Made by a program: the position numbers and the translations under genes
Source: Baffinella frigidus
Taxonomy: Eukaryota; Cryptophyceae; Cryptomonadales; Baffinellaceae
Assembly: GCA_026770585.1 (NCBI GenBank)
Contig: MU646398.1
Location: 276,634-303,250, forward strand
DNA length: 26,617 nucleotides
Reading direction: 5' to 3'
In this document: in pieces, positions 5,471-26,530 of the stretch
Numbering within the stretch: position 1 is the stretch's first letter
Layout: each line of letters starts with the position of its first letter
The notes under the pieces: generated by a model
What the model saw: the letters and a program-made list of their open reading frames with translations, nothing else
The model's database searches: none
What the model was told of the DNA's origin: nothing

Positions 5471-5505
5471 CCCTAAACCCTAAACCCTAAACCCTAAGCC
5501 CTAAA
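5471..5505. repeat. Short interstitial CCCTAAA array
   Basis: About five units of CCCTAAA with one CCCTAAG variant. It is not next to a recognised exon. Confidence 0.85.
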
Positions 5506-5563
5506 CTTTCGGCGGCGCCGCCTCGCCCCCTTCCCTCTGAGAGGTACCTGCTGCCGCCGGATT

Positions 5564-6896: not shown

Positions 6897-7007
6897 AAAC
6901 TAAACCCTAAACCCCCAACCCTAAACCCTAAGCCCTAAACCATAAACCATAAACCATAAACCATAAATCATAAACCCAAATCCCTAAACCCTAAACCCTA
7001 AACCCCT
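6897..7007. repeat. Interstitial telomere-type array
   Basis: CCCTAAA units mixed with CCATAAA and CCCAAAT variants for about 110 bp. The CCATAAA block is a local homogenised variant. Confidence 0.85.
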
Positions 7008-7429
7008 TTTTCTCCTCGAGGAACGCTATTGCTGGTGTTTGCACACAGCCCTGCATGACACCCTCTCTCGGCCCAAGGCCTCACACAACGATTCTCAACT
7101 CCACGTGTGCCTACGCTCACATGATCTCTGCTCAAGGCGAGCTATCCGTTGTTAGAGCGGTTTCTACGAAAACAATCAAACAATGCCACATGTTGATAGT
7201 CTAGTTTCAGCATCGTCAATGTTGAGCATTTTTGGAAATATTTTGGAGTGGCCAACAGATGCGAAACCCGCTCCAACGAAGTGACGAGACGATGCACCGC
7301 GGGTTGCAGTCCCCAACGTCAGTGGGAGCGTGGTACCAACCTGACCTAACGCTCAGGTTTGCACCCGCAGCATCGCACACACGCATGCGTAGAATAACCC
7401 AGGTCTGAACCCTGGTGGTAGCATGGCAG

Positions 7430-7530
7430 GCGGTGGTCCTCACCGTCGGAGGACAGCTCTTTGCCGCTTCTTACGAAACTTGGACCAAGGAAGAGGGTCA
7501 GCTCTTCGCCGCGTCTCATCTTTCCTAGCT
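7430..7530 (+). pseudogene. Copy of a KCTD-type BTB (T1) N-terminal exon
   Basis: After GGCAG the frame reads AVVLTVGGQLFAASYETW, then TKEEG, then a second QLFAAS and a TAG at about 7528. The pattern VxLxVGGxxFxxSxxTL is the first strand and helix of the KCTD/potassium-channel-tetramerisation BTB fold. The Asn of LNVGG is Thr here. The internal repeat of QLFAAS and the early stop suggest a decayed duplicate of 7701-7769. Confidence 0.5.
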
Positions 7531-7645
7531 CTGCCTCAGTCTGATTCGGGCCCACCAATTTGGTGAGCCCGATGAGCCCGGGCTCGTTTTCGCTCCAAAG
7601 TTGACGGTTTTGTACCACACACCCAGAACGTCAACTTAAGAATAG
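7525..7645. repeat. Dispersed repeat, family E, second copy
   Basis: Starts CTAGCTCTGCCTCAGTCT, contains CACCAATTTGGTG, and shares GTACCACACACCCA and GTCAACTTAAGAATAG with the 5564 copy. It lies between the two BTB-exon copies. Confidence 0.55.
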
Positions 7646-7700
7646 TCGGTCGAGGTAGGAAATGACAGCTGTAACGAAATGACGGGACGATGCACGGCAG

Positions 7701-7769
7701 GTGGTGGTCCTCAACGTCGGAGGACAGCTGTTTGCCGCTTCTTACGAAACTTGGACGAAGGAAGAGGGG
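7701..7769 (+). CDS. KCTD-type BTB (T1) domain exon, N-terminal part
   Basis: After TGCACGGCAG the frame reads VVVLNVGGQLFAASYETW followed by TKEEG. LNVGGxxF is the hallmark start of the T1/KCTD BTB domain (substrate adaptors of cullin-3 ligases, or channel tetramerisation). The exon end is uncertain: a GTCCTC follows GAGGG at about 7770. The matching second half lies 1.1 kb downstream at 8897-9001, but the middle of the domain was not found. So this is either a gene with an unrecognised middle exon or a broken copy. Confidence 0.5.
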
Positions 7770-8183
7770 TCCTCCCCCTTTCCTTTCCCCCCCTCGATGA
7801 AATGGACCGTCGTATGAAACGTGGACCAAAGAGGACCCCCGCCCCCCTTTCCCCTCTTGGCCTCTTTCTCGATGACTTGAATTGATCGATTTCCCGGTAA
7901 AAATGGCGTGAAAGGAAACCCAGCGTATGTTGCACGCTGTGCTGCGGATGCACAGTATCTTCTTCTTCTTCTTCCTTCCTTCTTTTTTGCCCTCTTAAGG
8001 CCATGTTAACACATCCAGACCTAGCGAAAGGTGATCAACTTACCAACTACCCACCGTGCGGAGGTCATATCTGGAGGGGATGGTGGCAGGCCGCATTTCC
8101 ACGGAAACACACTGTGTGTTGCATGCTAGGTTGTGGGCCAACGGAAACAATCAAACACTGCCATAAATTGACAACCCCCTGGT
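7770..8183. other. No gene recognised; CTT-rich dispersed repeat
   Basis: Contains a decayed third piece of the BTB exon tail (about 7805-7830) and a CTT-rich stretch at 7961-7990. The sequence after it (AAAGGTGATCAACT...) is also found at 15219-15250. No exon is supported. Confidence 0.4.
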
Positions 8184-8241: not shown

Positions 8242-8510
8242 CGCACAGGTCGTATCTGGAGGGGATGGTAACAGGCCGCATCCCTGTCTCTTTCGATGAG
8301 GTGCAGCCCCGCCAGCATCGCACGCAGGGCCCCCTATTTAGAGTCATCAGGGATATCCACTAGTTGGATAGCCCCGCCAGCGTTTGTACTTGACGCGTCC
8401 CGATCGAGGCACGGAGCACGATGCGCGTGCTCCGTCTAAGAATGCTGCCGGATGGATAGGACTCGACGTGACTGACAGGATTGCGTGCTCCACTTGACGT
8501 ATCCTGCACC

Positions 8511-8690: not shown

Positions 8691-8729
8691 GCAGGCGGGG
8701 TGGGTGTTTCTCGACCGCGAACCCACGGT
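8691..8729 (+). pseudogene. Truncated copy of the BTB second-half exon
   Basis: GCGGGGTGGGTGTTTCTCGA and the following CCGCGAACCCACGG copy the start of the exon at 8897, including its CAG acceptor. After about 39 bp the sequence switches abruptly to a dispersed repeat (8729-8841). Upstream, a telomere-type array ends 18 bp before the acceptor. Confidence 0.55.
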
Positions 8730-8896: not shown

Positions 8897-9001
8897 GGCG
8901 GGGCGGGTGTTTCTCGACCGCGACCCCACGGCATTCCGTCTCGTCCTCAACTTCCTTCGCGACGACACGGCATGGGCCCTGACCCCCCTCCCTTCGGGAT
9001 G
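8897..9001 (+). CDS. KCTD-type BTB (T1) domain exon, C-terminal part
   Basis: After CCCCCCTTACAG the frame reads GRVFLDRDPTAFRLVLNFL, then RDDTAWALTPLPSG. This matches the FIDRDPxxFRxVLNFLR...LP segment that closes the KCTD BTB domain. No good donor is obvious after LPSG. A tandem partial copy follows at 9029-9085. It could be one exon of the gene begun at 7701, or a fragment. Confidence 0.5.
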
Positions 9002-9028: not shown

Positions 9029-9110
9029 AGTCGTGTCCTCAACTTTCTCCGCGACGACACGGCATGGGCCCTTACCTCCCCACCCCTGGGATTTCACCCC
9101 CCCCCCCCTC
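9029..9110 (+). pseudogene. Tandem partial copy of the BTB exon
   Basis: TCGTGTCCTCAACTTTCTCC and the following GCGACGACACGGCATGGGCC repeat 8938-8975 with substitutions, giving RVLNFLRDDTAWALTS. It lacks the VFLDRDP part and runs into a C-tract. Confidence 0.55.
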
Positions 9111-9475: not shown

Positions 9476-9486
9476 GTCTATCCCCC

Positions 9487-9595
9487 CTAAACCCCAAACC
9501 CCAAACCCCAAACCCCAAACCCCAAACCCCAAACCCCAAACCCCAAACCCCAAACCCCAAACCCCAAACCCTAAATCATGAACCCTAAACCCCAC
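9487..9595. repeat. CCCCAAA variant telomere-type array
   Basis: About eleven nearly uniform CCCCAAA units, then CCCTAAA variants. It lies in the putative intron after the 9428 exon-like segment. Confidence 0.9.
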
Positions 9596-9790: not shown

Positions 9791-9889
9791 TCAAACCACA
9801 CCATCGAATCCGACGAAACCTCGACCCCGCGTTCTAATTTAGAACCCATACCTCTCTCCACCCTCGACCCTGGCCCGGTCCTCCGGCCC

Positions 9890-9957
9890 CAAACCCTAAA
9901 CCCTAAACCCCAAACCCTAAACCCTAAACCCCAAACCCCAAACCCCAAACCCTCAAT
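9890..9957. repeat. Telomere-type array before the 9964 exon-like segment
   Basis: Mixed CCCTAAA and CCCCAAA units ending AAACCCTCAATCTGCAG, i.e. directly at an AG. Confidence 0.9.
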
Positions 9958-10275: not shown

Positions 10276-10455
10276 CCTAAACCCCAAGCCCCACGCTACA
10301 AAACCTATCCTAAAACCTAAAACCTAAACCCCAAACCCCAAACCCTAAACCCCAAACCCTAAATCCCACACCCTAAACCTCAAACCCCAAACCCCAAACC
10401 CCAAACCCCAAACCCCAAACCCCAAACCCCAAACCCTAAATCCCACACCCTACAC
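10276..10455. repeat. Telomere-type array before the 10466 exon-like segment
   Basis: CCCCAAA and CCCTAAA units with CCCACAC/CCTACAC variants at the 3' end, finishing CTCTGAATCAG at an exon-like acceptor. Confidence 0.9.
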
Positions 10456-10465
10456 TCTGAATCAG

Positions 10466-10516
10466 GTGTGCGTCCTGACGCTGCACGCGGATGCGGTGAC
10501 CAACCTGGTGCACACA
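10466..10516 (+). CDS. Exon-like segment after a telomere-type array
   Basis: After CCCTACACTCTGAATCAG it reads VCVLTLHADAVTNLVHT, with possible donors at GTGACC (10496) or GTACCT (10517). A decayed copy lies at 10687-10748, beyond the 9-bp minisatellite. It also resembles the repeated segment at 11509, 11667 and 11875 (VHVDAAPQVIKGIRA). Confidence 0.35.
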
Positions 10517-10552
10517 CGTACCTTCCCAACCCTAAGGTTTATGGCTTACGCT

Positions 10553-10683
10553 ATTGGAGCTATTGGAGCTATTGGAGCTATTGGAGCTATTGGAGCTATT
10601 GGAGCTAGTGGAGCTAGTGGAGCTAGTGGAGGTATTGGAGGTATTGGAGCTAGTGGTGGTATTGGAGGTATTGGAGCCATTGA
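10553..10683. repeat. ATTGGAGCT 9-bp minisatellite
   Basis: About fourteen 9-bp units, at first exact (GCTATTGGA), then with AGTGGAGCT and GGTATTGGA variants. It has no stop in several frames, so it gives false Ile-Gly-Ala or Leu-Leu-Glu proteins. Further blocks lie at 11414-11490, 11743-11766 and 11799-11860. Confidence 0.9.
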
Positions 10684-10686
10684 CTC

Positions 10687-10748
10687 GTGTGCTTCCTGAC
10701 GCTGCACGCGGACGCGGATGACGAATCTCGTCCACACACGTACCTTCC
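10687..10748 (+). pseudogene. Decayed copy of the 10466 exon
   Basis: Shares GTGTGC-TCCTGACGCTGCACGCGGA and CACACACGTACCTTCCCA with 10466-10528, with a frame-changing insertion. Confidence 0.6.
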
Positions 10749-10752
10749 CACC

Positions 10753-11413: not shown

Positions 11414-11920
11414 CTATTGGAGCTATTGGAGCTATTGGAGCTATTGGAGCTATTGGAGCCATTGGAGCCATTGGGGCCATTGGAGCCATTGACTTGTCCT
11501 GGTCGGCAGTGCACGTGGACGCCGCCCCGCAAGTCATCAAAAGGCATCCGTGCTGTTGCCATTGCGTCGTTGTTTTCATGGTGTTCACATCGTGGCGGTG
11601 TTCACACGTGTGAAAACATCTCTAGCGCCAGTCAGTTGGTTGCTGACGAAAGAGTGCGCGTCGGCAGTGCACGTGGACGCCGCGCCGCAAGTCATCACAG
11701 GCATCCGCGCTTCCAATCTGAGAGTGCTCGTCGGCAGTGCAGTATTGGAGCTATTGGAGCCATTGACTCGTCCTCGTCGGCAATCAGTTGGCTGATCACG
11801 CTATTGGAGCTATCAAAGCTATTGGAAGTATTGGAGCCATTGGAGCTATTGGAGCCATTGAATCGCCCTCGTCGGCAGTGCACGTGGACGCCGCGCCGCA
11901 AGTCATCAAAGGCATCCGTG
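11414..11920. repeat. Tandem cassettes: 9-bp minisatellite plus 50-bp conserved segment
   Basis: Three copies of a segment reading GTGCACGTGGACGCCGCGCC plus GCAAGTCATCA-A-GGCATCCG at 11509, 11667 and 11875. The first and third are directly preceded by a block of ATTGGAGCC/ATTGGAGCT units. The segment can be read as VHVDAAPQVIKGIRA, suggesting it came from an exon, but no stable exon structure can be drawn. Confidence 0.65.
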
Positions 11921-12205
11921 CCTTCGTCGCAAAGGCACTCCTCACCCCCCACCACCTTTTTCACTATTCACAGACAATCATCCGCCACTCCCTTTCCATA
12001 CACTCAAGTTATCAGAGGGATCCGCGCATTCATGGCAAAGAAAGCCACGAATATTTGTGGTTTGGCAGATGTCATATGCCACTCCCTTTCAAAGCTTTCA
12101 CGACACTCCCTTTCAATACACTCCGACACCCCCTTTCAACACACTCCGATGCTCCCTTTCAGTACACTCAGACACTAGTTAGCCCAGAGCCCATTTCTCC
12201 CCCCC
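11921..12205. repeat. CACTCCCTTTC... short repeats
   Basis: Six or so spaced copies of CACTCCCTTTCAATACACTC and variants between 11983 and 12170. No gene is recognised. Confidence 0.5.
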
Positions 12206-13648
12206 ATGGAGATGCAGCTTCCACTCGTGCGAGACATCCTCAACTCCCATGCTGCGAACCGCACCAGCGCTCTGACGGCAAGCTGGCACCCTCCCGTCAC
12301 ACACACAGAGTCACACACACAGACCGTGGCTCGCGCGGTCGAGCTCGGCTGGATCCCGCTCTGCAACACCCGCGATTTCGTGATGTTGTTGATACCTATT
12401 TTTTGTTTGTTGAAATTCCAATAACGTTCATTTGTTTTTGCAGACGGTGGCGGGAGAGCAGTGCAGCTACTCCCTGGACGGGACGCAGCTCTCGCTCAAC
12501 CTCGACGCGGGCCACGGGGGGGTCGAGCTGCCGTCCCACGGTCGCGCCCCGCCCCCGCATCGTGTGTTGAGCAGCCTCGGACGTTTCACGCATCCAGTGG
12601 CATCCTCACCACCCTCTCGAGGCCTCCCAAGGTCAGCAGCACCCTCACCACCTTCTCGTTACTAGGTCCCTTGTTCTAGGTCCATAGTTGGAACATTTAG
12701 GGACCGCGCTGCCGTCCCACGGTCGCGCCCAGCCCCCCAGCATGGGTCCATCCATGGGCCCATCCGCGCGGATGGGCGCGACCGTGCCCAATGGGCTCAT
12801 CCAGCAGCACCCCCACAACATCCTCCCCGCATCGTGTGCTGAGCAGCTTCTGAAGCGGGCGCGGTTTCGTTTGCCATGAAGCAGGCGCGTGGCAACCGAA
12901 ACCGCGCCCGCATCGCTTTCATCCCGGAAGATAACTGAATCAGTTCCTTTTCAATAGGAGTTTGAATAGGAGAAATTAGTTAAGGCATAGTAAATTCAAT
13001 TAGGCCTCCTAATTAAATCAAAATTCCCATTAGGCAACTGATTCAGTCATCTTTCGAGAGGAGATTGCTGAGCAGCCTCTGGGTCCGCGGGGTGAGGTTC
13101 CGAGTGCTTACCGCGCCGCATTGTCTGTGGTGTCCCTTTCCCATGGCATAAACCCCACCCCCCACACGGTGGGAATCGAGGGTTTCGTTGACCCTTATTC
13201 CGGGATATTACGTGACCAATTTGCCTAGAAAAAATCTTCAAGTTAATTGTGTTCAGTTAACTTGACTTTTGATGAAAGGTTCGTAGTCCACCGAGTGGTA
13301 ACATAGCAAACAGGTGAGGCATATTGAAATGCAGCGGCGTCCCTCCATCTGACCTTTCCCCCGGCAGGGCTCGGAAGGGTTCCCTCCTCCACTGTTCCCT
13401 ACCCCCTAAACCCCACCCCTACCCTCTAAACCCTGAACACCCTCTGAGGCAGGCCTCGGAGGGTGGAACCACCCGCACTCGCTGCTTACGGCTCTCAAGA
13501 CCCAGGGCTGGGAAGTGCTGCGTGAGGTGACCCCCCCCCCTCAAACCCTGAACCTTGCAACCCTCAACCCTAAATCTTAAACGCTTCACGCTAAATACTC
13601 AACCCTGAACCTCCTCAAACGCAGTTCCCTGGCCAGCGCAGACCCTGA
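12206..13648 (+). CDS. Unknown gene, possible four-exon 3' part
   Basis: Proposed exons: 12206-12379 (MEMQLPLVRDILNSHAANRT... to CNTRDF), 12444-12582 (after TTTGTTTTTGCAG; TVAGEQCSYSLDGTQLSLNL...), 13453-13526 (after CTCTGAGGCAG; LGGWNHPHSLLTALKTQGWE, VLRE), 13625-13648 (after CAAACGCAG; FPGQRRP then TGA). Phases match. The first intron is short and T-rich with a classic acceptor. The exon at 13453 is the most convincing. The link 12582 to 13453 uses a GTTTCA donor and is the weakest step; without it exon 12444 reads on to a TAG at 12663. The true start is unknown, as the ATG at 12206 may be internal. The family is not recognised. Confidence 0.35.
12854..12919. repeat. Inverted repeat, 22-bp arms
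   Basis: GCGGGCGCGGTTTCGTTTGC(CA) and (TG)GCAACCGAAACCGCGCCCGC form a hairpin with a short loop. It lies directly before the MITE-like element. Confidence 0.65.
12926..13055. mobile_element. MITE-like AT-rich element with 20-bp inverted ends
   Basis: Ends GGAAGATAACTGAATCAGTT and AACTGATTCAGTCATCTTTC are inverted with two or three differences. The interior is AT-rich, about 90 bp, with AATAGGAGTTTGAATAGGAG. It is non-coding. Confidence 0.55.
13173..13293. repeat. Dispersed repeat, copy 2
   Basis: Same unit as 8729-8841: GTTTCGTTGACCCTTATTCC... and TTTGATGAAAGGTTCGTAGT plus CCACCGAGTGG. Confidence 0.6.
13361..13386 (+). pseudogene. Decayed copy of the start of exon 13453
   Basis: CGGCAGGGCTCGGAAGGGTT matches the acceptor and first bases of the exon at 13453 (GGCAGGCCTCGGAGGGTGG). 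A short telomere-type stretch lies between copy and exon. Confidence 0.45.
13540..13620. repeat. Degenerate telomere-type stretch before exon 13625
   Basis: CCCTGAA, CCCTCAA, CCCTAAA and similar units running to CTCAAACGCAG, an acceptor. Confidence 0.7.
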
Positions 13649-14173: not shown

Positions 14174-15026
14174 ACCGTAAACCCTAAACCCTACGCCCTC
14201 AAACCTGAGCACTGAACCCCAAACCCTAAACCCTAAACCCTAAACCCTAAACCCTAAACCCTAAACCCTAAACCCTAAACCCTAAACCCTAAACCCTAAA
14301 CCCTAAACCCTAAACNNNNNNNNNNNNNNNNNNNNNNNNNNNNNNNNNNNNNNNNNNNNNNNNNNNNNNNNNNNNNNNNNNNNNNNNNNNNNNNNNNNNN
14401 NNNNNNNNNNNNNNNNNNNNNNNNNNNNNNNNNNNNNNNNNNNNNNNNNNNNNNNNNNNNNNNNNNNNNNNNNNNNNNNNNNNNNNNNNNNNNNNNNNNN
14501 NNNNNNNNNNNNNNNNNNNNNNNNNNNNNNNNNNNNNNNNNNNNNNNNNNNNNNNNNNNNNNNNNNNNNNNNNNNNNNNNNNNNNNNNNNNNNNNNNNNN
14601 NNNNNNNNNNNNNNNNNNNNNNNNNNNNNNNNNNNNNNNNNNNNNNNNNNNNNNNNNNNNNNNNNNNNNNNNNNNNNNNNNNNNNNNNNNNNNNNNNNNN
14701 NNNNNNNNNNNNNNNNNNNNNNNNNNNNNNNNNNNNNNNNNNNNNNNNNNNNNNNNNNNNNNNNNNNNNNNNNNNNNNNNNNNNNNNNNNNNNNNNNNNN
14801 NNNNNNNNNNNNNNNNNNNNNNNNNNNNNNNNNNNNNNNNNNNNNNNNNNNNNNNNNNNNNNNNNNNNNNNNNNNNNNNNNNNNNNNNNNNNNNNNNNNN
14901 NNNNNNNNNNNNNNNNNNNNNAACCCTAAACCCCAAACCCCAAACCCCAAACCCCACACCCCAAACCCCAAACCCCAAACCCCAAACACCAAACACCAAA
15001 CCCTAAACCCTAAACCCTCAACGCAG
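14174..15026. repeat. Long telomere-type array containing the assembly gap
   Basis: Nearly perfect CCCTAAA units at 14219-14315, then 606 N (14316-14921), then CCCTAAA, CCCCAAA, CACCAAA units to 15026. The open frames across the gap are artefacts. The array ends AAACCCTCAACGCAG at an exon-like acceptor. Confidence 0.95.
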
Positions 15027-15975: not shown

Positions 15976-16384
15976 CTCCAAAGTGAATCAAATCGAGGAT
16001 GGAGCTTGAGCCGTTTTCTTCATTTTAAGTAACCCTTGTCCTTATTCGCGAGCAACCCCTGTAGCCGCGAGAGGCTTTGATGCTGCGCATGATGGAATTT
16101 CGACCGTGTGTGTGGAACTACAGGGGTACCTCGCTCATCAGAAACCGCCTCCCCCTAGGACCCTACAGTAGGCCTATGCCTAGGGTCCTATGGTGGTCCT
16201 GGGGGGGGGGGGAAGTTTCTGATGAGCGAGGTACACCTGTAGTTCCTCACACACGGTCAAAGCTCCGGCATACGCAGCATCAAAGCCTCTCGCGGCTACA
16301 GGGGTCACTCGCGAATAAGGACGGGGGTTACTTAAAATGAAAAAAACTGCTCAAGCTCCATCCTCGATTTGATTCACTTTGGAG
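15976..16384. mobile_element. Nested 409-bp palindrome with family A element at its centre
   Basis: Outer arms 15976-16118 and 16242-16384 (143 bp each, about 90% complementary; from CTCCAAAGTGAATCAAATCG inward to GTGTGTGGAAC). Within each arm lies a family B-like end (ATTCGCGAG...CCCCTGTAG). Family A copy 2 (16119-16241) occupies the exact centre. A lone family A right end follows at 16384-16399. Confidence 0.85.
16119..16241. mobile_element. Foldback element, family A, copy 2
   Basis: TACAGGGGTACCTCGCTCAT... to ...ATGAGCGAGGTACACCTGTA. The terminal bases are flanked by GGAAC and GTTCC, the inner tips of the outer palindrome. Confidence 0.9.
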
Positions 16385-16479
16385 CGAGGTACCCCTGTAG
16401 TCCCGGACGAGCCCGCTTCGGGGCGTTAGATCGACCGTATTCGGGGTGCGCTTTGACACTGACGCCGAACGGTGCATGT

Positions 16480-16546: not shown

Positions 16547-16825
16547 GGAGAGCAGGTGAAACGAGAGCCGGGCCTTGTAAGTCTAGGACCTAAAAATTTG
16601 ACCTGAATGCTGAAGCCGATTGGTGCACCGTGCGGAGAGCAGGCGAAACACAAGGCACACCTTGGAAGACTTTGACCGAAACGACTGCTAGAGCTTCGAC
16701 CGTTTTGAAAAGCCCAATGGTGTGTAATGGTGCACCGTGCGGAGGGCAGGCGAAACAGGCGCCGGGCCCGACGCCACGCGACTCCTTGCTCGCGCGCTTC
16801 ACGCTTCGCCGATGACCTCCCGGGA

Positions 16826-16947
16826 TACAGGGGTACCTCGCTCATAAGAAACCGCCCTCCCCTAGGACCCTACAGTAGGCCTATGCCTAGGGCCCTACGG
16901 TGGTTCTAGGGGCGGGGGCAGTTTCTTGTGAGAGAGGTACCCCTGTA
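16826..16947. mobile_element. Foldback element, family A, copy 3
   Basis: TACAGGGGTACCTCGCTCAT... to ...GAGAGAGGTACCCCTGTA. It is flanked by 99-bp direct repeats at 16728-16826 and 16957-17055 (TGGTGCACCGTGCGGAGGGC... / TGGTGCATCGTGGGGAGAGC...). Confidence 0.9.
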
Positions 16948-17055
16948 AAGCTGAATTGGTGCATCGTGGGGAGAGCAGGCGAAACAGGCGCCGGGCCCGA
17001 CGCAGCGTGACTCGTTGCTGGCGCGCTTCACGCTTCGCCGATGACCTCCCGGAAT

Positions 17056-18610: not shown

Positions 18611-21600
18611 ATGTGGTTCAAGGGGGGATCAGGCGCAGTGCTGGCGGTTCTGGCAGTTTCGATGGTCGGGCCGTCGCGGGGAAACCGTTTCCAGGAGGCG
18701 TGGGTGATGAACTGCGAGCACACGTTCCCAGACGGGACCACCTACGACCTGAGCCCGCTGACGCGGACGGCGGGACGCCCGGACTACATGGGGCGCGACA
18801 AGGCGAATAACAACTACTACATGAACATCTGTTCAAACGTCCAGGAGATCCCCAAGGAGTGCCGCGCCCTCAATAAGAACGTCCGCTCGCCTGTTTACCA
18901 GGTAGCCGACCCCCACCCACTCTGCGCAGCCTCGCTACCTGGTGTGAGGGTTTCACTTCGCTCCAACCCCTCTCCGCATACAGACTCCCTCTGGGGACTG
19001 CTCCCCTAGCCTCAGCCCGCCAGCCGTGCAGGAGCGAGGGCTGGGCGAACTTTCCGGAGCCGCAGGAGGAGGGGTGGCAGGATGTGGCGGGCGGAATTAT
19101 TAAGGGGTGATGGGGACGGCAGGTTCGGAATGACAGCTTCTGCCACTGGCTGGGGCTGGAGGGCAGCCACAGATGGGACTTAATCGGTACTTTCCCCCCG
19201 GGACCCAGATACTGCACGAACCTCACAAATCCAGGGTGCGGTTTTCAATATCCGTTTTGGTTTTTGCGAAAGCGCGGCGGGGTTAGACAAGAGATGGAAC
19301 TCGGAGTCCGAGCAGAGGATCCGAAGCGAGTGCGCCGTGCTGGTGCAGTTGATCGACGGCTGCGGTCGCACAGGTGTATCAGTGGGCGTATCCACCCTGA
19401 ACCACGACTTGGAATTTTGAAAATCTCAAATTCTGGAGCGCAGCACCCGGTGGCTGCAGACTCCAGCACTGGATAAGGGTGGATGCCTGAATGCTAGCAT
19501 CAACCTAATTCCGGCGTTCCGTAGGGTGCTACGGTATACCATACGGTAGGGTGCTTACGGAATGCCGGAATTAGGTTAATGCCGGAATTAGGGCGTCCGC
19601 CCTGACATCCCGGATTCTGGGGAGGGCGCGCTCTGTGGCAGCGCAGCCACCAGCCACCCGAAGTGAACCAGATCAGGTCGGAGTTGACTATTTTTTTCAC
19701 TAGAGGTACACCTCAGAAGTGTACCTCTGGTGAAATTTACTACAGGTGGAATATCCCGATCTGGTTAACTTCGGGTGGCTGGTGGTGGGGAGGGCTCTGT
19801 GGCAGCGCTGGGGAAGCGGATCATGTGGGCGGTGTGCTGCTGGTATGGTGTGGTGGCCGCAGAAAAGGGCAGCCCATTGGTGGGGGGGGGGGAGTGGGTG
19901 CAGAACAGGGCGTTTGAACACGATACTGAGGCGCGGTGCGTGGGTGCAGAAAAGGGCGGTGGAACACCTCACTGTGGGTGCAGAAGTGGGTGCAGAAACG
20001 GGGAGTGAAACAGGTTTCTGAGGCACGGTGCATTGGTGCGGAAGAGGGCAGTGTGAGGCTTACTGAGACGCCGTTGTTTGGGAGCAGAAAAGGACAGCCC
20101 GCTGGTGGGGGTGCAGCTGACATACACGGATGGTGAGTACTGCCGCGAGGGGGGCGGGAACCGCCAAGTCAAGTGCGACCCCCCCTTCTCTCTCTCTCTC
20201 TCTCTCTCGCTCGCTCTCGCTCTCGCTATCTCGCTCTCTCCTTCCCTCTCTCTCGCGCTGTCTATCTCGCTTTCGCTCTCGCTCTATCTCTCTTGTTCTC
20301 TCTTTCGCTCTCGCTCTCGCTCTCGCACGCCTTCTATATCTATCTCTCTCTCTCTGGCGAGTACTGCTGCGAGGGAGGCGGGAACCGCCAAGTCAAGTTC
20401 ATGCACCCCGCTTCTTGTTCGTTATCACCCTCGAGCTTCTTCTTGGCGGGGGTAGGCCTGGGCGTAGGACCTACCGCGGCGCTGCGCCTTGCGAGAGAGA
20501 GAGAGAGAGAGAGAGAGTGTGTGTGTGTGACAGAGAGAGCGAGAGAGAGCGCGCGCGAGAGAGAGAGAGGGAGGAACAGTGCGAGAGAGAGAGGGGGAGA
20601 GAGAGAGAGTGTGTGTGTGAGAGAGAGAGAGAAAGGCAGCATGGATGAATGGGGCGTGTCCTGCACCCACGGGCCGACCCAGCATCCGGAAGCACCCCGG
20701 CGCGGAAGGAGCCAGAGGCGAAACGCCAGGGACCCCACACGGGGCTAACAGCCCTACATGACCATGCTCCGCTCGAGAATGCAAGAGGGGCCTTTATACA
20801 TGTGGGGCTGTAAATATTTGTACCAGGATAGGGTATTCCAACCTCGTGACTGTGCTAATTTCGCAGAGTTACGTGACCAATCAACGAAAATTACTACACA
20901 CATGCCCACTTTTAAAAGCACATATGTTTTAACATTCTCTCTCGTGTGGCTAGATCGGAACAGGCCTTGTTTTTGTTAGCGCCGCGGCGCCCCCGGGCGC
21001 CCTTCCACGGCACCCAAATATTTCGGGCCCGTAACATTTGAGTGTGGCATTAAATGCTGCAGAGCAACCCGGTGAAATGTTGCAGAGAATCCCCCCTGCA
21101 GTGATGGGGGGGGTGCTGTCAGGGCGGGTGAAACCACCCTGAAAGAGAGATTTCAACCGACACGCCCCCGCCCTGACTCTCAAGTGCACGATTCCGCTCG
21201 CGTTGCCTCCCCCCCCATTTTTGCAGATATATACGGCCCTGATGTGTGCATATCTACTGCGACGGAATGTCTTGGATCAGGAGCAGACTTCAAACCATCA
21301 GATTTTTCCACATGGGAGGGCTTGAGGTTGTGCTGTTCTCTGAATCCGAAGATTCTGAAGCAACCCCCCCCCACCCACACAGGCTGCAGATTTACTGTGA
21401 CGGGATGAGCCGTCTGCCATCAGTAGCAGACTAACAAACCATCAGCATGTTTCACATGGGGAAGGCGTGAGGTTGTGCTGTCCTCTGATTCTGAACCCTC
21501 CCCCCCACATCCCACCCCAGGCTGCAGATTTATTGCGACGGGATGAGCCGTCTTGGATCAGTAGCAGACTACTATGTCACAGCCGACTCGCCGTGCAGCT

Positions 21601-23040
21601 ACGTGGTGAAAACCTACACCCTGAACCCTAAACCCTAAACCCTGAACCCTAATCCCCAAACCCTGCACCCTAACCCCTAAACCCTAAACCCTAAACCCTA
21701 AACCCTAAACCCTAAACCCTGAACTCGAAACCCCAAGGTGACACACGGCTGCCACCAAACCCTAAACCCTAAACCCTAAACTCCAAAGCCTAAACCCTCA
21801 GGTGACGTTTCCGTCGCCGCACGGGTGTCCGAAGGTCGCCACGACGAGTAAAGGGGCTTCCTTCTTGATCGGGTGAGCGCCCAGCCTCCTCGAGGGGGGG
21901 GGTCCGCGTCAGCTGCCCCTTTCGACGCTCCTCCATTTCGCAAACCCTGGCCTTGTTAAGTGGCCTCTGGCCTTGAAAAGTGGACCCTGACCTTGTACGG
22001 TGTTGCTGCCACAGAGCCCCAGGACTCGTGACTGCTCACAGCTTCCCCTGATACCAAGCCTGTTCGGAGTAGTTACCATCCTGATGCAAGTTTGCCTGGT
22101 GTAGTCAAGAGGTGTGGGACTGTTACCTGGTGTAGAGCTCTGCCTTGATTATCTAGTTGCACTGCAACTCGCATGGTTGTCCCAGCGGCCTGACCCCCCC
22201 GCCATTCCGCACGGGCTGCTCGTGTTGTCTGGGGGCCCTTTACCCCAAACACGAAACCCTCAACCCTAAACCCTAAACCCTGAACCCTGAACCCTAAACC
22301 CCAAACCCTAAACCCTAAACCCCAAACCCCAAACCCTCAGGCTGCTGGTGTTGGCTGGGGCGTACTTTGGGGGCGGGGTTAGCTACAATGTCATTCGACG
22401 ACACATGCCGCTCGGTCTGTCCCCTCCCGCCCTACCACAAGAATTCGAGGATCTGGTCCAAGGAAATGGCTCGAGCTCCAGCCTCGATTTTATCCACTTG
22501 GGAGGTATTGTGGTACAGGGGTTACTCGGAATTAAGGACACGCACTTTCTTAGGGTCCTCCGTCTGCCCCCCGCCCAACAGGGGTTACTCGAAATTAATC
22601 TTGGGGTGGTGCAGTAGGGCTAGTCCAAGAAGCATAGGACCGCCCTAGAGCCGGTGCGTGTCCTTAATGTCGAGTAACCCCTGTACCTCTCTCCAACGCA
22701 ACCTCTCGTGACTGTTGAATGAACCGCGCTGGGTTTGTACCAAGACGGAATCTACAACAGGCGCGCTTGATACCAGAATGCCCTCTGATTAGACAACAGT
22801 GGTGGGTGCCTCGAAAAGCCTGCTGTTAGGCCGAGCATGTGTCTGAGAACAACCCGGAGAGAGAATTAGGACCATATCCCTTACGTGGCGAGGGGGTCAA
22901 AATTGACCCCTGACAGGTACTAGGCAGGTCCCAGGGCCCTACCGTAGGGCGTATGAGCCTACTCACCACTTAAGGGATAGATAGAGTGTGCGCCCTAAAC
23001 CCTAAAGATGGCGAGAGCGTGTGTGTGTGTGTGTGTGTGT

Positions 23041-23088
<48 letters not shown>

Positions 23089-23950
23089 GAGCGAGCGAGA
23101 GAGAGATGGAAGTCCCTAGGACGGGCCCGCCTCGCGTTCACGCCCGTCATAGAGACACAACAAAACTTGGCCAATGCGGGTGAGAGAAGCGGCATTATCC
23201 CAGACGCGGTCCTCACACACACACACACACACACACGGCCTGAACGCCGAATGCCGCGCCTTAACACTCCAAACCTCAAACCTTACACTCCTAAACCCTA
23301 AACCCTAAACCCTAAACCCTAAACCCTAAACCCTAAACCCTTAACCCCAAACCCCAAACCTTAAACCCCAAACCCCAAACCTTGAACCCCAATCCCTAAA
23401 CCCCAACCCCCCCCAACCAGACGTCGAGGCGGTCCCGCATATAGAGTTCTGGCGCGCGCTACCCGCCACCATCGTGGAACAGGTTAGACCCTACACTCCT
23501 CGGGACACTACGGGGAACATTCTCAACGTAATCATTGTTTTGTTTCTGAAGGAAACATGCCAAACTTGAGCAATGTTTGGTCACGTTGTCCCCGGATGTC
23601 CGGGGGGGATGTGCTCTGTAGCCTCCGCGCTACCCGCCACGATCGTGGAACAGGTTGACCCCTAAACACTAAACCCTAAACACTAAACCCTAGACCCCAA
23701 ACACCAAACACCAGACACCAAACACCAAACACCAAACACCAGACACCAGACACCAAACAACACACCCCAAACCCCACACCCCACACCCCACACCCAAAAC
23801 TCAAACCCCTAAACCCCGAACCCCAAACCCCAAACCCCAACCCAGGGCTACGCGTTCCTCGACTGGGTGATGGTCAAAATCGGGAAACGGGAGCCGCATC
23901 TTGGGGAGGCTGAGGCGGGGGGGGCGGGGTATGAGTGGACGGGCTTGTAG
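18611..23950 (+). CDS. MRH-domain type I membrane receptor (M6P receptor/Atg27-like), 8 exons
   Basis: Exons: 18611-18901, 19123-19186, 20088-20172, 21521-21605, 21802-21872, 22341-22414, 23421-23482, 23846-23950. All introns are GT...AG and all phases match, giving 837 nt (278 residues plus TAG). Residues 1-24 form a signal peptide. Residues 35-184 form an MRH domain with eight cysteines (35, 74, 84, 104, 137, 152, 172, 184), the strands GVQLTYTDGEYC and RQVKLQIYCD, and the C-x-Y plus final Cys 12 residues later that are typical of the fold. The Arg (144) and Tyr (174) matching sugar-contact residues are present; the Glu position looks like Asp169 and the Gln cannot be placed, so lectin activity is uncertain. 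Residues 193-212 are a membrane helix. The tail has YNVI (YxxPhi-like sorting signal), then PHIEFWRALP, which matches the PHxxFWxxLP motif of M6P-receptor/Atg27 tails. Family role: cargo or membrane-protein sorting in the Golgi-endosome-vacuole system. The domain architecture is confident; the exact orthologue is not. Confidence 0.88.
19504..19575. mobile_element. Foldback element, family D, in MRH intron 2
   Basis: CCTAATTCCGGCGTTCCGTA... to ...TACGGAATGCCGGAATTAGG, with a core of TACGGTATACCATACGGTA. A further GCCGGAATTAGGG follows. Confidence 0.8.
19647..19785. mobile_element. Foldback element in MRH intron 2, flanked by direct repeats
   Basis: Arms CCACCAGCCACCCGAAGTGA... and ...TTCGGGTGGCTGGTGG pair over about 31 bp. 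An inner dyad AGAGGTACAC...GTGTACCTCT lies in the centre. The flanks GGGAGGGCGCGCTCTGTGGC (19620) and GGGGAGGGCTCTGTGGCAGC (19786) are direct repeats. Confidence 0.75.
19849..19876 (+). pseudogene. Echo of MRH exon 3 start, in intron 2
   Basis: GCAGAAAAGGGCAGCCCATT plus GGTGGGG copies the acceptor and start of exon 3 (GCAGAAAAGGACAGCCCGCT at 20084). Diverged GTGCAGAA-(A)GGGC units fill the space between. Confidence 0.7.
20132..20167 (+). other. Source segment of exon 3 echo
   Basis: Coding segment GGTGAGTACTGCCGCGAGGG... of MRH exon 3, which is repeated at 20357-20397. Confidence 0.6.
20188..20355. repeat. (CT)n-rich microsatellite in MRH intron 3
   Basis: CTCTCT with CTCG and CTAT interruptions, lying between exon 3 and its echo. 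Confidence 0.9.
20357..20397 (+). pseudogene. Echo of MRH exon 3 end, in intron 3
   Basis: GCGAGTACTGCTGCGAGGGA... to GGGAACCGCCAAGTCAAG matches the end of exon 3 (20132-20173) with few changes and keeps a GT at the splice position (CAA|GTTCAT). Confidence 0.8.
20490..20637. repeat. (GA)n/(GT)n microsatellite in MRH intron 3
   Basis: GAGAGA tracts with two GTGTGTGT blocks. Both strands give long false ORFs. Confidence 0.9.
21248..21590. repeat. 138-bp tandem repeat: two echoes plus real MRH exon 4
   Basis: The segment GCAGATTTATTGCGACGGGA recurs with a 138-bp period at 21248, 21386 and 21524. Only the last has the full exon. The second carries a TAA where the exon reads on (GCAGACTAAC), and the first has lost its acceptor (TGCATATCTACTGCGACGG). 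Confidence 0.85.
21616..21801. repeat. Telomere-type array filling MRH intron 4
   Basis: CCCTAAA, CCCTGAA and CCCCAAA units occupy most of the 196-bp intron and end AAACCCTCAG at the acceptor. A short GGTGACACACGGCTGCC at 21736 may be a decayed echo of exon 5. Confidence 0.95.
21960..22005. repeat. Degenerate tandem repeat in MRH intron 5
   Basis: TGGCCTTGTTAAGTGGCCTC, then TGGCCTTGAAAAGTGGACCC, then TGACCTTGTACGGTG. Confidence 0.7.
22213..22236 (+). pseudogene. Echo of MRH exon 6 start, in intron 5
   Basis: GGGCTGCTCGTGTTGTCTGG plus GGGC matches AGGCTGCTGGTGTTGGCTGG plus GGCG at the real acceptor (22339). A telomere-type array separates the two. Confidence 0.65.
22246..22340. repeat. Telomere-type array at the end of MRH intron 5
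   Basis: CCCTAAA, CCCTGAA and CCCCAAA units ending AAACCCTCAG exactly at the exon 6 acceptor. Confidence 0.95.
22514..22685. mobile_element. Foldback element, family B, in MRH intron 6
   Basis: TACAGGGGTTACTCGGAATT AAGGACACGC to GCGTGTCCTTAATGTCGAGT AACCCCTGTA. An internal AACAGGGGTTACTCGAAATTAA marks a second partial end. Confidence 0.85.
22874..22980. mobile_element. Foldback element, family C, in MRH intron 6
   Basis: TATCCCTTACGTGGCGAG to CTCACCACTTAAGGGATA, with an inner CCCAGGGCCCTACCGTAGGG. It is related to 25153-25319. Confidence 0.65.
23020..23236. repeat. (GT)n(GA)n and (CA)n microsatellites in MRH intron 6
   Basis: GT then GA tract at 23020-23105, and CA at 23213-23236, about 108 bp apart. 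Confidence 0.9.
23262..23420. repeat. Telomere-type array at the end of MRH intron 6
   Basis: CCCTAAA units, then CCCCAAA variants, ending CCCCCAACCAG at the exon 7 acceptor. Confidence 0.95.
23626..23656 (+). pseudogene. Echo of MRH exon 7 end with donor, in intron 7
   Basis: CGCGCTACCCGCCACGATCG plus TGGAACAGGTT repeats the 3' end of exon 7 and its donor (23455-23485). Both copies keep GAACAG|GTT, so either could be spliced; the phase would differ only if the intervening part were kept. Confidence 0.8.
23656..23845. repeat. Telomere-type array at the end of MRH intron 7
   Basis: CACTAAA, CACCAAA, CACCAGA and CCCCACA variants, ending CCCCAACCCAG at the exon 8 acceptor. Confidence 0.95.
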
Positions 23951-24231: not shown

Positions 24232-24352
24232 TACAGGGGTACCTCGCTCATAAGAAACCGCCCCCCCCCTAGGGACCACCGTAGGGCCCTAGGATAGGCC
24301 TACTGTAGGGTCCTAGGGGGGGGCGGTTTCTTATGAGCGAGGTACCCCTGTA
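24232..24352. mobile_element. Foldback element, family A, copy 4
   Basis: TACAGGGGTACCTCGCTCAT... to ...ATGAGCGAGGTACCCCTGTA. Inverted ends match over more than 35 bp; the core is ACCGTAGGGCCCTAGGATAG. Confidence 0.92.
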
Positions 24353-24627: not shown

Positions 24628-24721
24628 TACAGGGGTGCCTCACTCACAGTAGGGCTATGCCTTGGGCCCTATGATGGTCCTAGGAGGGAGGGCGTTTTCT
24701 TATGAGCGAGGTACCCCTGTA
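24628..24721. mobile_element. Foldback element, family A, copy 6, internal deletion
   Basis: TACAGGGGTGCCTCACTC, then directly CAGTAGGGCTATGCC, then ...ATGAGCGAGGTACCCCTGTA. About 25 bp of the left arm is missing. Confidence 0.85.
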
Positions 24722-26176: not shown

Positions 26177-26295
26177 TACAGGGGTACCTCGCTCAGAAAA
26201 ACTGCCCCCCCCTAGGAGCACCTTAGGGCCTTAGGCATAGGCCTACTGTAGGGTCCTAGGGGAACGCGGTTTCTCATCAGCGAGGTACCCCTGTA
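26177..26295. mobile_element. Foldback element, family A, copy 7
   Basis: TACAGGGGTACCTCGCTCAG... to ...ATCAGCGAGGTACCCCTGTA. Flanked by TAATTTGTCCAACTA (26164) and TAATTTGTCTCCGACTA (26294). Confidence 0.9.
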
Positions 26296-26346
26296 ATTTG
26301 TCTCCGACTAGGGGGACGTGTGCAGGGTGGTCAACTGTTTCGTCGG

Positions 26347-26466: not shown

Positions 26467-26530
26467 GGGGGACGTGCGCAGGGTGGTCAACTGTTTCGTC
26501 CGTGGCTTTAATCGATTACGCCTGTAAGAT

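Follow-up and report, generated by a model that had tools for sequence, protein, structure and literature searches.

Why do introns contain worn copies of the exons beside them, and do such copies make introns or lengthen them? The question is raised by a 26,617-nt stretch of DNA from the alga Baffinella frigidus (C96:276634-303250, called here the window), which holds an MRH gene of the ATG27 type and, at about 4.4-14.0 kb, a BTB/T1-domain gene. L034, an armadillo-like gene from a different contig, is the third gene of the comparison. We find that copies of exon ends, called echoes below, recur in the neighbouring introns of all three. Our preferred reading, to which we give a probability of roughly 0.55, is that frequent duplications of short local segments, in many cases with DNA captured between the copies, left the echoes behind, and that selection keeps only the events that spare the exon.

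Exon echoes, their frequency and their polarity

The 31 exons of the comparison (15 in the BTB gene, labelled c and b, eight in the MRH gene, labelled m, and eight in L034, labelled l) were set by protein homology and splice sites; the calls for l7-l9, c1, c4, b10 and the b3 end are less sure. Each exon with 20-nt flanks was scanned against 1 kb on either side at a threshold of 30 bits. A same-strand echo is observed for 17/31 exons and an inverted one for 0/31. By gene, exons with an echo number 6/15 in BTB, 4/8 in MRH and 7/8 in L034. A second count gives 16/31 exons on the same strand, 0/31 inverted and 0/31 on the same strand at 1-4 kb. The corresponding rates are 15.6%, 8.1% and 7.7% for size-matched intron segments outside exons and echoes, and 22.7%, 13.8% and 12.9% for size-matched segments outside genes. 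The exon rate of 16/31 exceeds both same-strand controls (P 3e-6 and P 4e-4, respectively), so echoes are commoner than chance. By the segment controls, DNA outside exons carries direct local copies at a net surplus of about 8-10 points, compared with 52% for exons.

All MRH echoes that the annotation had listed, for exons 3 (both ends), 4 (two), 6 and 7, are recovered at 79-97% identity or with 0/500 shuffles equal (Table 1). Its BTB echoes are recovered as well: those for the exons at 10466 (echo 10687), 12444, 7701 (7421), 8249 (8062), 8898 and 11879 reach 89-96%, while the pair 13453/13361 is marginal only (P 0.006). Near-whole copies are limited to b1, b6 and l3. Arrays of the 9-bp unit GCTATTGGA lie around b6 and b7 (10550-10682, 11414-11491 and 11800-11860) and contribute to the intron-side homology of one b7 echo.

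The strongest regularity is a polarity that is absent from the first-pass annotation. Copies of exon starts lie upstream of the exon and copies of exon ends downstream, and 29/34 echo rows follow this order when counted by eye, 13 of them upstream and start-only and 16 downstream and end-only. Two rows are whole, two are internal and one is against, the last being the start part of the near-whole l3 copy, which lies downstream of l3. Taken by exon side, the polarity is 20 to 1 (P 2e-5).

Local duplication, often with inserted filler, extends beyond the MRH gene and the window, and this conclusion is well supported. In 65 kb of gap-free sequence, made up of the window and six random islands, pairs spaced 100-500 bp apart are direct in 127 cases and inverted in 22. 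Direct pairs prevail in 15/17 islands, with one tie and one reverse; the 17 islands are a non-random sample, ten of them coming from a telomere-repeat search. Searches of the entire assembly with protein profiles yielded 89 kinesin, 25 SNF2, at least 151 kinase and 19 dynein AAA_9 matches. Under a criterion set by eye and post hoc (same-strand neighbours with at least 20 overlapping profile positions, within about 650 bp), these matches contain 13 clusters: six of kinesin, three of SNF2, three of kinase (among the matches listed) and one of AAA_9. No such cluster is found among the 14 chaperonin/TCP1 or ten myosin profile matches. Of the 13 clusters, 11 obey the polarity and none opposes it; the other two are a nearly internal copy, which lies on the side expected, and a pair of copies that are equal. 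Four clusters (kinesin, kinase) include shortened copies with stops, and one kinesin exon, taken to be the longest copy of its cluster although it too shows a stop, is preceded by three shortened copies at spacings of 270, 252 and 229 bp. Contigs with copies among the profile hits are C123, C112, C506, C657, C101, C18, C231, C612 and C23.

Table 1. Exons, echoes, spacers, arrays and flanking repeats in the window, with strand and remarks
Feature	Position	Strand	Remarks
MRH (ATG27-type) exon m1	18611-18901	+	P0001 100%; no echo found
MRH exon m2	19123-19186	+	no echo found
MRH exon m3	20088-20172	+	
MRH exon m4	21521-21605	+	
MRH exon m5	21802-21872	+	no echo found
MRH exon m6	22341-22414	+	
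MRH exon m7	23421-23482	+	
MRH exon m8 (last)	23846-23950	+	no echo found
m3 start echo, upstream	19859-19886	+	25/28 bp; 0/500 shuffles equal
Period-46 tandem array	19894-20097		m3 start echo just before it, in partial overlap
Filler between m3 and its end echo	20175-20355	.	CT-rich microsatellite, 169/181 bp simple
m3 end echo (GEYC.EGGGNRQVK) with splice-site bases, downstream	20356-20398	+	93%
m4 start echo, far	21247-21289	+	79%
m4 start echo, near	21365-21433	+	87%; true tandem copy, period 136
m6 start echo, short	22214-22234	+	0/500 shuffles equal; telomere-like array between it and m6
m7 end echo including GT, downstream	23626-23656	+	97%
BTB exon b1	7701-7768	+	P0014/P0015
BTB exon b2	8249-8300	+	
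BTB exon b3	8898-8966	+	3' end uncertain
BTB exon b6	10466-10517	+	P0014
BTB exon b7	11879-11934	+	GC donor (AAG/GCACTC at 11934-11935) inferred; length fits P0014
BTB exon b8	12444-12540	+	
BTB exon b9	13453-13526	+	
b1 echo, partial, older	7283-7320		82%
b1 echo, full length, upstream	7421-7497	+	94%
Filler between b1 echo and b1	7498-7691	.	131/194 bp is dispersed CTAGCTCTGCC element
b2 start echo	8062-8096	+	91%
b3 start echo, upstream	8692-8728	+	95%; dispersed element starts at inner edge (8729)
b3 end echo, downstream	9035-9076	+	93%
Filler between b6 and its echo	10529-10686		mainly GCTATTGGA array
b6 echo, whole exon, downstream	10687-10750	+	89%
b7 start echoes, two	11498-11553 and 11659-11710	+	95% and 96%
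b8 end and flank echo, two pieces	12705-12737 and 12825-12853	+	94% and 90%
b9 start echo, marginal	13363-13380	+	18 columns; P 0.006, single test; below 30-bit scan
99-bp direct repeat	16728-16826 and 16957-17055	+	flanks dispersed hairpin element (16827-16946); analogue outside BTB and MRH genes
Direct repeat of about 35 bp	26311-26345 and 26467-26501	+	around another copy of the 16827-16946 hairpin element; read from sequence, missed by motif scan
Telomere-like array in intron	5471-5506		
Telomere-like array in intron	6900-7005		
Telomere-like array in intron	9485-9594		
Telomere-like array in intron	9887-9952		
Telomere-like array in intron	10312-10450		
Telomere-like array in intron	21609-21798		
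Telomere-like array in intron	22242-22337		
Telomere-like array in intron	23278-23403		
Telomere-like array in intron	23658-23840		

Eight stretches of the window match the Baffinella frigidus protein P0001, all at 100% except for one at 96.7% that contains a codon divided by a splice site. Thus the window is nuclear DNA of this species, and the MRH gene is a real gene of the ATG27 type. With an early exon model of this gene as query, Pfam ATG27 matches at 31.4 bits (cut-off 27) and full-length cryptophyte homologues are found. In a protein search, also with an early model, the homologues of Hanusia, Proteomonas and Rhodomonas, which we take to be cryptophytes, stand at 49-53% where most of the query is covered. 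The BTB gene is based on P0014 and P0015, and L034 is supported by P0016 and P0017. The matches of a genome search, in which the best candidates were scored, include no second copy or allele of the MRH gene.

Interwoven haplotypes or noisy reads could also produce repeated exon pieces as an assembly artefact. Long N stretches would favour this: in the eukaryotic assembly of 382 Mb and 1364 contigs, random sampling gives 160,894/200,000 letters as N, with runs up to 10 kb, and 14/20 random 10-kb stretches are N throughout. Against it, the copies are 3-21% different and show a biological polarity, the intact exons encode P0001, and the copies lie in gap-free stretches, which makes an artefact very improbable. 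The N run in the window (14316-14921) sits within a telomere-like array.

Spacers, arrays and dispersed elements

Homology above the 99% null extends over the entire spacer in 6/34 rows (m4 with period 136, l7 with 160, l9 with 239 and 152, and l2 twice), so these rows are plain tandem duplications. All echoes might have arisen in this manner, by slippage or unequal crossing-over of 130-280 bp units whose intron parts erode, with no capture of filler. The spacings between exon copies in the profile clusters point in the same direction, 12/15 of those for kinesin, kinase and AAA_9 falling within 229-285 bp; the SNF2 spacings (about 196, 202, 224 and 605) fit this range more poorly. However, the spacer homology falls short of the 99% null in 28/34 rows, three of them partway, and these include pairs at 94-97% identity where erosion hardly suffices. 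Some spacers are furthermore a single array, or a dispersed element that starts at the copy edge. As the general explanation, plain tandem duplication is thus unlikely.

The fillers comprise CT microsatellite, GCTATTGGA array, telomere-like array, dispersed elements and unique DNA. Individual fillers are nearly pure array (169/181, 133/158 and 96/105 bp). The earlier suggestion that arrays lie specially between echo and exon is nevertheless not borne out, as simple repeat makes up 18.0% of filler (33 rows, some overlapping) and 29.4% of other intron DNA; a coarser early count gave 17.2% and 16.0%. Thus, from the proposal of a duplication around a break that is then filled with simple repeats, local duplication with a frequent insert stands and the special role of arrays falls. 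A nucleosome-sized filler, suggested by several fillers of 140-195 bp, was rejected on a wider gap histogram, which is broad.

Elements of three dispersed families (A, B and C) are found within direct repeats of 37-99 bp in 5/28 rows. Their scores are 153, 146, 120, 86 and 64, three of them above the 99% null of 109 (the 95% null is 44.6). A sixth high-scoring row is an adjacent copy of the element itself, and an L036 element with an 18-bp repeat stays under the 95% null. Introner-like mobile elements, which make introns and leave long target duplications, would explain such elements between direct repeats, as well as the seven BTB and four ARM introns that seem absent in relatives. They would not explain that dispersed repeat is scarcer in filler than in other intron DNA (9.2% and 15.5%, 96 kb compared), that most copies of element A stand without a long flanking repeat, or that intron ends show no in-register repeat (see below). 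We regard them as a quite improbable source of the echoes.

Further dispersed sequences are present in the window. A hairpin family of about 120 bp with the ends ACAGGGGT/ACCCCTGT is found at 760-878, 16120-16240, 16827-16946, 24233-24351, 24629-24720 and 26178-26294, and is also clustered in L036. The m3/m4 intron holds a dispersed element of about 164 bp (20769-20932) with at least 39 other genomic copies, most at 90-93%. Nested palindromes are seen by eye at 16010-16400, where an element A copy lies within longer inverted repeats.

The telomere-like arrays are strongly oriented. In four genes, the sense strand is C-rich in 40 arrays and G-rich in three (2076 vs 120 bp; P 3e-9). One of the four genes is on the minus strand and one (L045) is without a homologue. 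Neither L045 nor L034 has a Pfam match on three-frame readings and the L045 peptide has no PDB match, so the L045 gene model is purely a by-eye reading of the sequence. The sense (CCCTAAA)n contains no AG and no GT, and its complement contains both. In 11/27 introns a C-rich telomere-like unit ends at most 17 nt from the acceptor (a count without a null). We read the array orientation as selection on splicing, which says nothing on the route by which the arrays arrived. In the L045 island, the stretch 2364-2530 (C96:103969-104135) is intron-like with GC-AG ends and entirely telomere-like; a 9-bp direct repeat, CCCAGGCAC, flanks it in an apparent coding context (by eye).

Growth of existing introns

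The protein P0015 of a relative has 30 extra residues at the c1/c2 junction and 38 at b2/b3, the second insert starting with V and ending with Q. These residues resemble unspliced introns, and P0015 is therefore taken as read from genomic DNA. On this basis the c1/c2 intron is about 90 nt in the relative and 378 here, and the b2/b3 intron about 114 nt and 597, in agreement with the earlier proposal that introns grow by local duplication. P0015 is continuous across seven other Baffinella junctions (two weakly aligned) and P0016 across four more. Where P0015 is continuous, the introns c3/c4, c5/b1, b3/b4 and b4/b5 carry C-rich units (8, 14, 5 and 45, respectively). From P0011 and P0012, the introns m1/m2 and m3/m4 seem to be shared. 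The protein P0013 of a relative apparently contains two unspliced introns within the region that is the single exon m1 here, so introns differ both ways among cryptophytes.

By these comparisons, 16/27 introns were classed as shared or lineage-specific and 11/27 left unclassed. Echoes are present in 7/11 lineage-specific and 3/5 shared introns (Fisher P 1.0). A comparison of positions with relatives thus gives no support to the expectation that echo-bearing introns are recent, and the candidate rule that echoes are confined to new introns was rejected.

The further idea that introns arise from echoes fares no better. In 25 introns whose ends are certain (GT-AG in 24, GC-AG in one), an in-register repeat across the intron ends is not above chance, with a mean run of 2.88 against a null of 2.91 +/- 0.11 (P 0.62; P 0.52 with a tolerant score). 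Intron birth by AGGT-type duplication was rejected for the same reason. The echoes in shared introns and the lack of in-register repeats together indicate that echoes record growth.

Could the echoes be functional duplicated exons, alternative or mutually exclusive? In the three genes, the differences between exon and echo fall mainly at third codon positions (21/19/76), synonymous differences outnumber nonsynonymous ones by 73 to 43, and no stop codon is found in an echo. Nonsynonymous changes are also below the expectation for one dead copy, as given below. The spacing of differences modulo 3 is a weak coding sign (0.369, interval 0.332-0.413), and the codon-position count is clearer. However, most echoes are partial and without one splice site, and apart from the three near-whole copies none approaches an intact extra exon with two splice sites and an open frame. 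Seven echo indels break the frame and none keeps it, and some kinesin and kinase copies contain stops. A functional role as exons is improbable. In addition, changes common to all of at least two echoes relative to the exon are synonymous in 7/7 cases, so that the exon is the functional lineage.

Origin of the copies

Under the preferred reading, a segment of about 20-120 bp would be doubled, with the copies mostly 100-300 bp apart. The outcome would be either a plain tandem or two copies around a filler, which could be any captured DNA, such as a microsatellite, a telomere-like array, a hairpin element or unique DNA. A staggered break would probably come first, with fill-in at both overhangs and then end joining with an insert. 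Duplications within an exon would be lethal. An event that spans the acceptor would leave the downstream copy as the intact exon and a dead exon start upstream, and an event that spans the donor would leave the upstream copy intact and a dead exon end downstream. Selection on exon integrity would thus produce the polarity. The intact exon would keep evolving synonymously, and introns would gain tens to hundreds of bases per event in a process that is probably neutral.

The edges of the copies bear on this scheme. On the exon-interior side the edge is within the null in all 34 rows, and on the intron side roughly one row in three shows homology beyond the edge that exceeds the 99% null. In 11 rows selected as extendable, the intron part is 17.6% diverged and the exon part 7.4% (ratio 2.38), with 6.8 and 0.8 gaps per 100 bp, respectively. 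The ratio is about that expected for two neutral copies versus one, which is 2, plus quick indel wear of the intron. Copy edges near the splice site are thus due in part to the fast gain of indels by introns.

Several observations weigh against short local duplications as the explanation. No echo is found for 14/31 exons, including all five first BTB exons. Local copies are seen on 52% of exons and, net, on about 8% of intron segments; by our estimate a uniform process predicts about equal visible rates for the two, and the exon excess and the closeness of copy edges to splice sites exceed its expectation. Many copies have their edge no more than about 10 nt from the splice site. In the 65 kb of gap-free sequence, pairs spaced by less than 100 bp are inverted (hairpins) in 56 cases and direct in eight. 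Flanking repeats are missing from most element A copies, as noted above, and in the C123 kinesin cluster the longest copy, taken as the exon, has a stop in the aligned stretch. Nonsynonymous changes make up 41/105 differing exon sites, where a single dead copy predicts 54% (P 0.002); the deficit persists if a GC-to-AT bias of 2 or 3 is assumed (P 0.014 and 0.03, respectively), and the exon-to-echo changes themselves show no such bias. Finally, among sets of several echoes on one exon side, the echo closest to the exon has the highest similarity in just 4/9. A simple series of events beside the exon therefore does not fit, and an age ladder with the nearest echo youngest was rejected.

The exon excess, the edges near splice sites and the nearest-echo result keep an exon-anchored mechanism alive, in which duplication is tied to splice junctions, for example through splice-site R-loop breaks or nascent-RNA-templated repair. 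Such anchoring would account for the rate of 16/31 exons versus 15.6% of segments. It would also suit the listed local repeat pairs of L034, all of which seem by eye to touch an exon or an exon copy, and several high-identity copies that end 2-9 nt beyond the splice site and reach 30-70 nt into the exon. It does not sit well with the third of the rows that extend into the intron, and the fast indel wear of intron flanks weakens the arguments from exon excess and edges. We consider it possible though unlikely. In a more speculative and doubtful form, a process tied to the splice junctions would copy exon ends outward, and the gaps would be filled with C-rich telomere repeats to which the spliceosome is blind, the sense strand lacking AG and GT. 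If this were true, transcription-linked break repair with telomere machinery would grow introns, and exons would be ringed by a fossil series of their own past ends.

The preferred reading of local duplications with captured DNA has relatives in the literature, which we compare here as far as the accessible parts of the cited papers go. The nearest published idea is passive intron growth by repeated staggered double-strand breaks in Daphnia pulex (Li et al. 2014, PMC4202315), where introns hold direct repeats, some shared with one adjacent exon. Those repeats are much shorter (4-17 bp, or 4-12 bp with an exon), and internal repeats occur in 61.1% of 90 new and 16.2% of 617 established introns. 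As in Daphnia, the Baffinella introns hold direct repeats above chance, with inserts mostly unrelated to their flanks (28/34 rows). Unlike in Daphnia, the copies here are 20-120 bp long, occur in shared and lineage-specific introns alike, and show a polarity, none being described in the part of that paper available to us. Rogers and Bendich (2025, PMC11782384) interpret direct repeats of 4-30 bp, located at splice sites or close to them, as insertion scars; the Baffinella copies are longer, decayed and often several per exon end. The AGGT type of intron gain by tandem genomic duplication (PMC3443670) is likewise a local duplication that carries splice-site sequence, whereas the echoes seem to lengthen introns and not to found them, with no in-register repeat in 25 introns.

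For the repair step, CST-Pol alpha-primase provides a precedent. Fill-in of both overhangs (43-50) before end joining duplicates tens of bases, and the same complex also fills in telomere ends (PMC8355091). That work concerns induced breaks in mouse and human cells, and captured filler is not mentioned in the sections available; the present case is an alga with echoes and filler. Interstitial telomeric repeats inserted during break repair in mammals, which the first-pass annotation had invoked, are indeed published. However, simple target duplications are the minority there, at 6/130 rodent and 4/25 primate loci (PMC2246262) and 3/66 horse loci (PMC7215372). Human interstitial telomeric repeats lie in introns in 31% of cases and never in exons (PMC2246262, PMC7215372). 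Baffinella resembles the mammals of these two papers in having telomere-type arrays at internal sites, accompanied in mammals by a target duplication on some occasions. It differs in that the arrays are a large intron component, are oriented with transcription and are not enriched at echo junctions. Exon echoes in a cryptophyte are not named in the titles or abstract openings of the open-licence literature searched.

The lengthening of introns and the rate of their birth have been difficult to follow, since the traces are lost with time. In these genes the exon is conserved and can be used as the reference by which a decayed echo is identified and assigned to its place. Roughly half of the exons in the three genes are accompanied by worn copies of their own ends, and the introns apparently keep a readable record of their growth. 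A whole-genome catalogue of echoes would make intron growth countable and would test whether breaks prefer exon borders. The same catalogue would ask whether its splicing-silent nature lets introns tolerate oriented telomere-type DNA.

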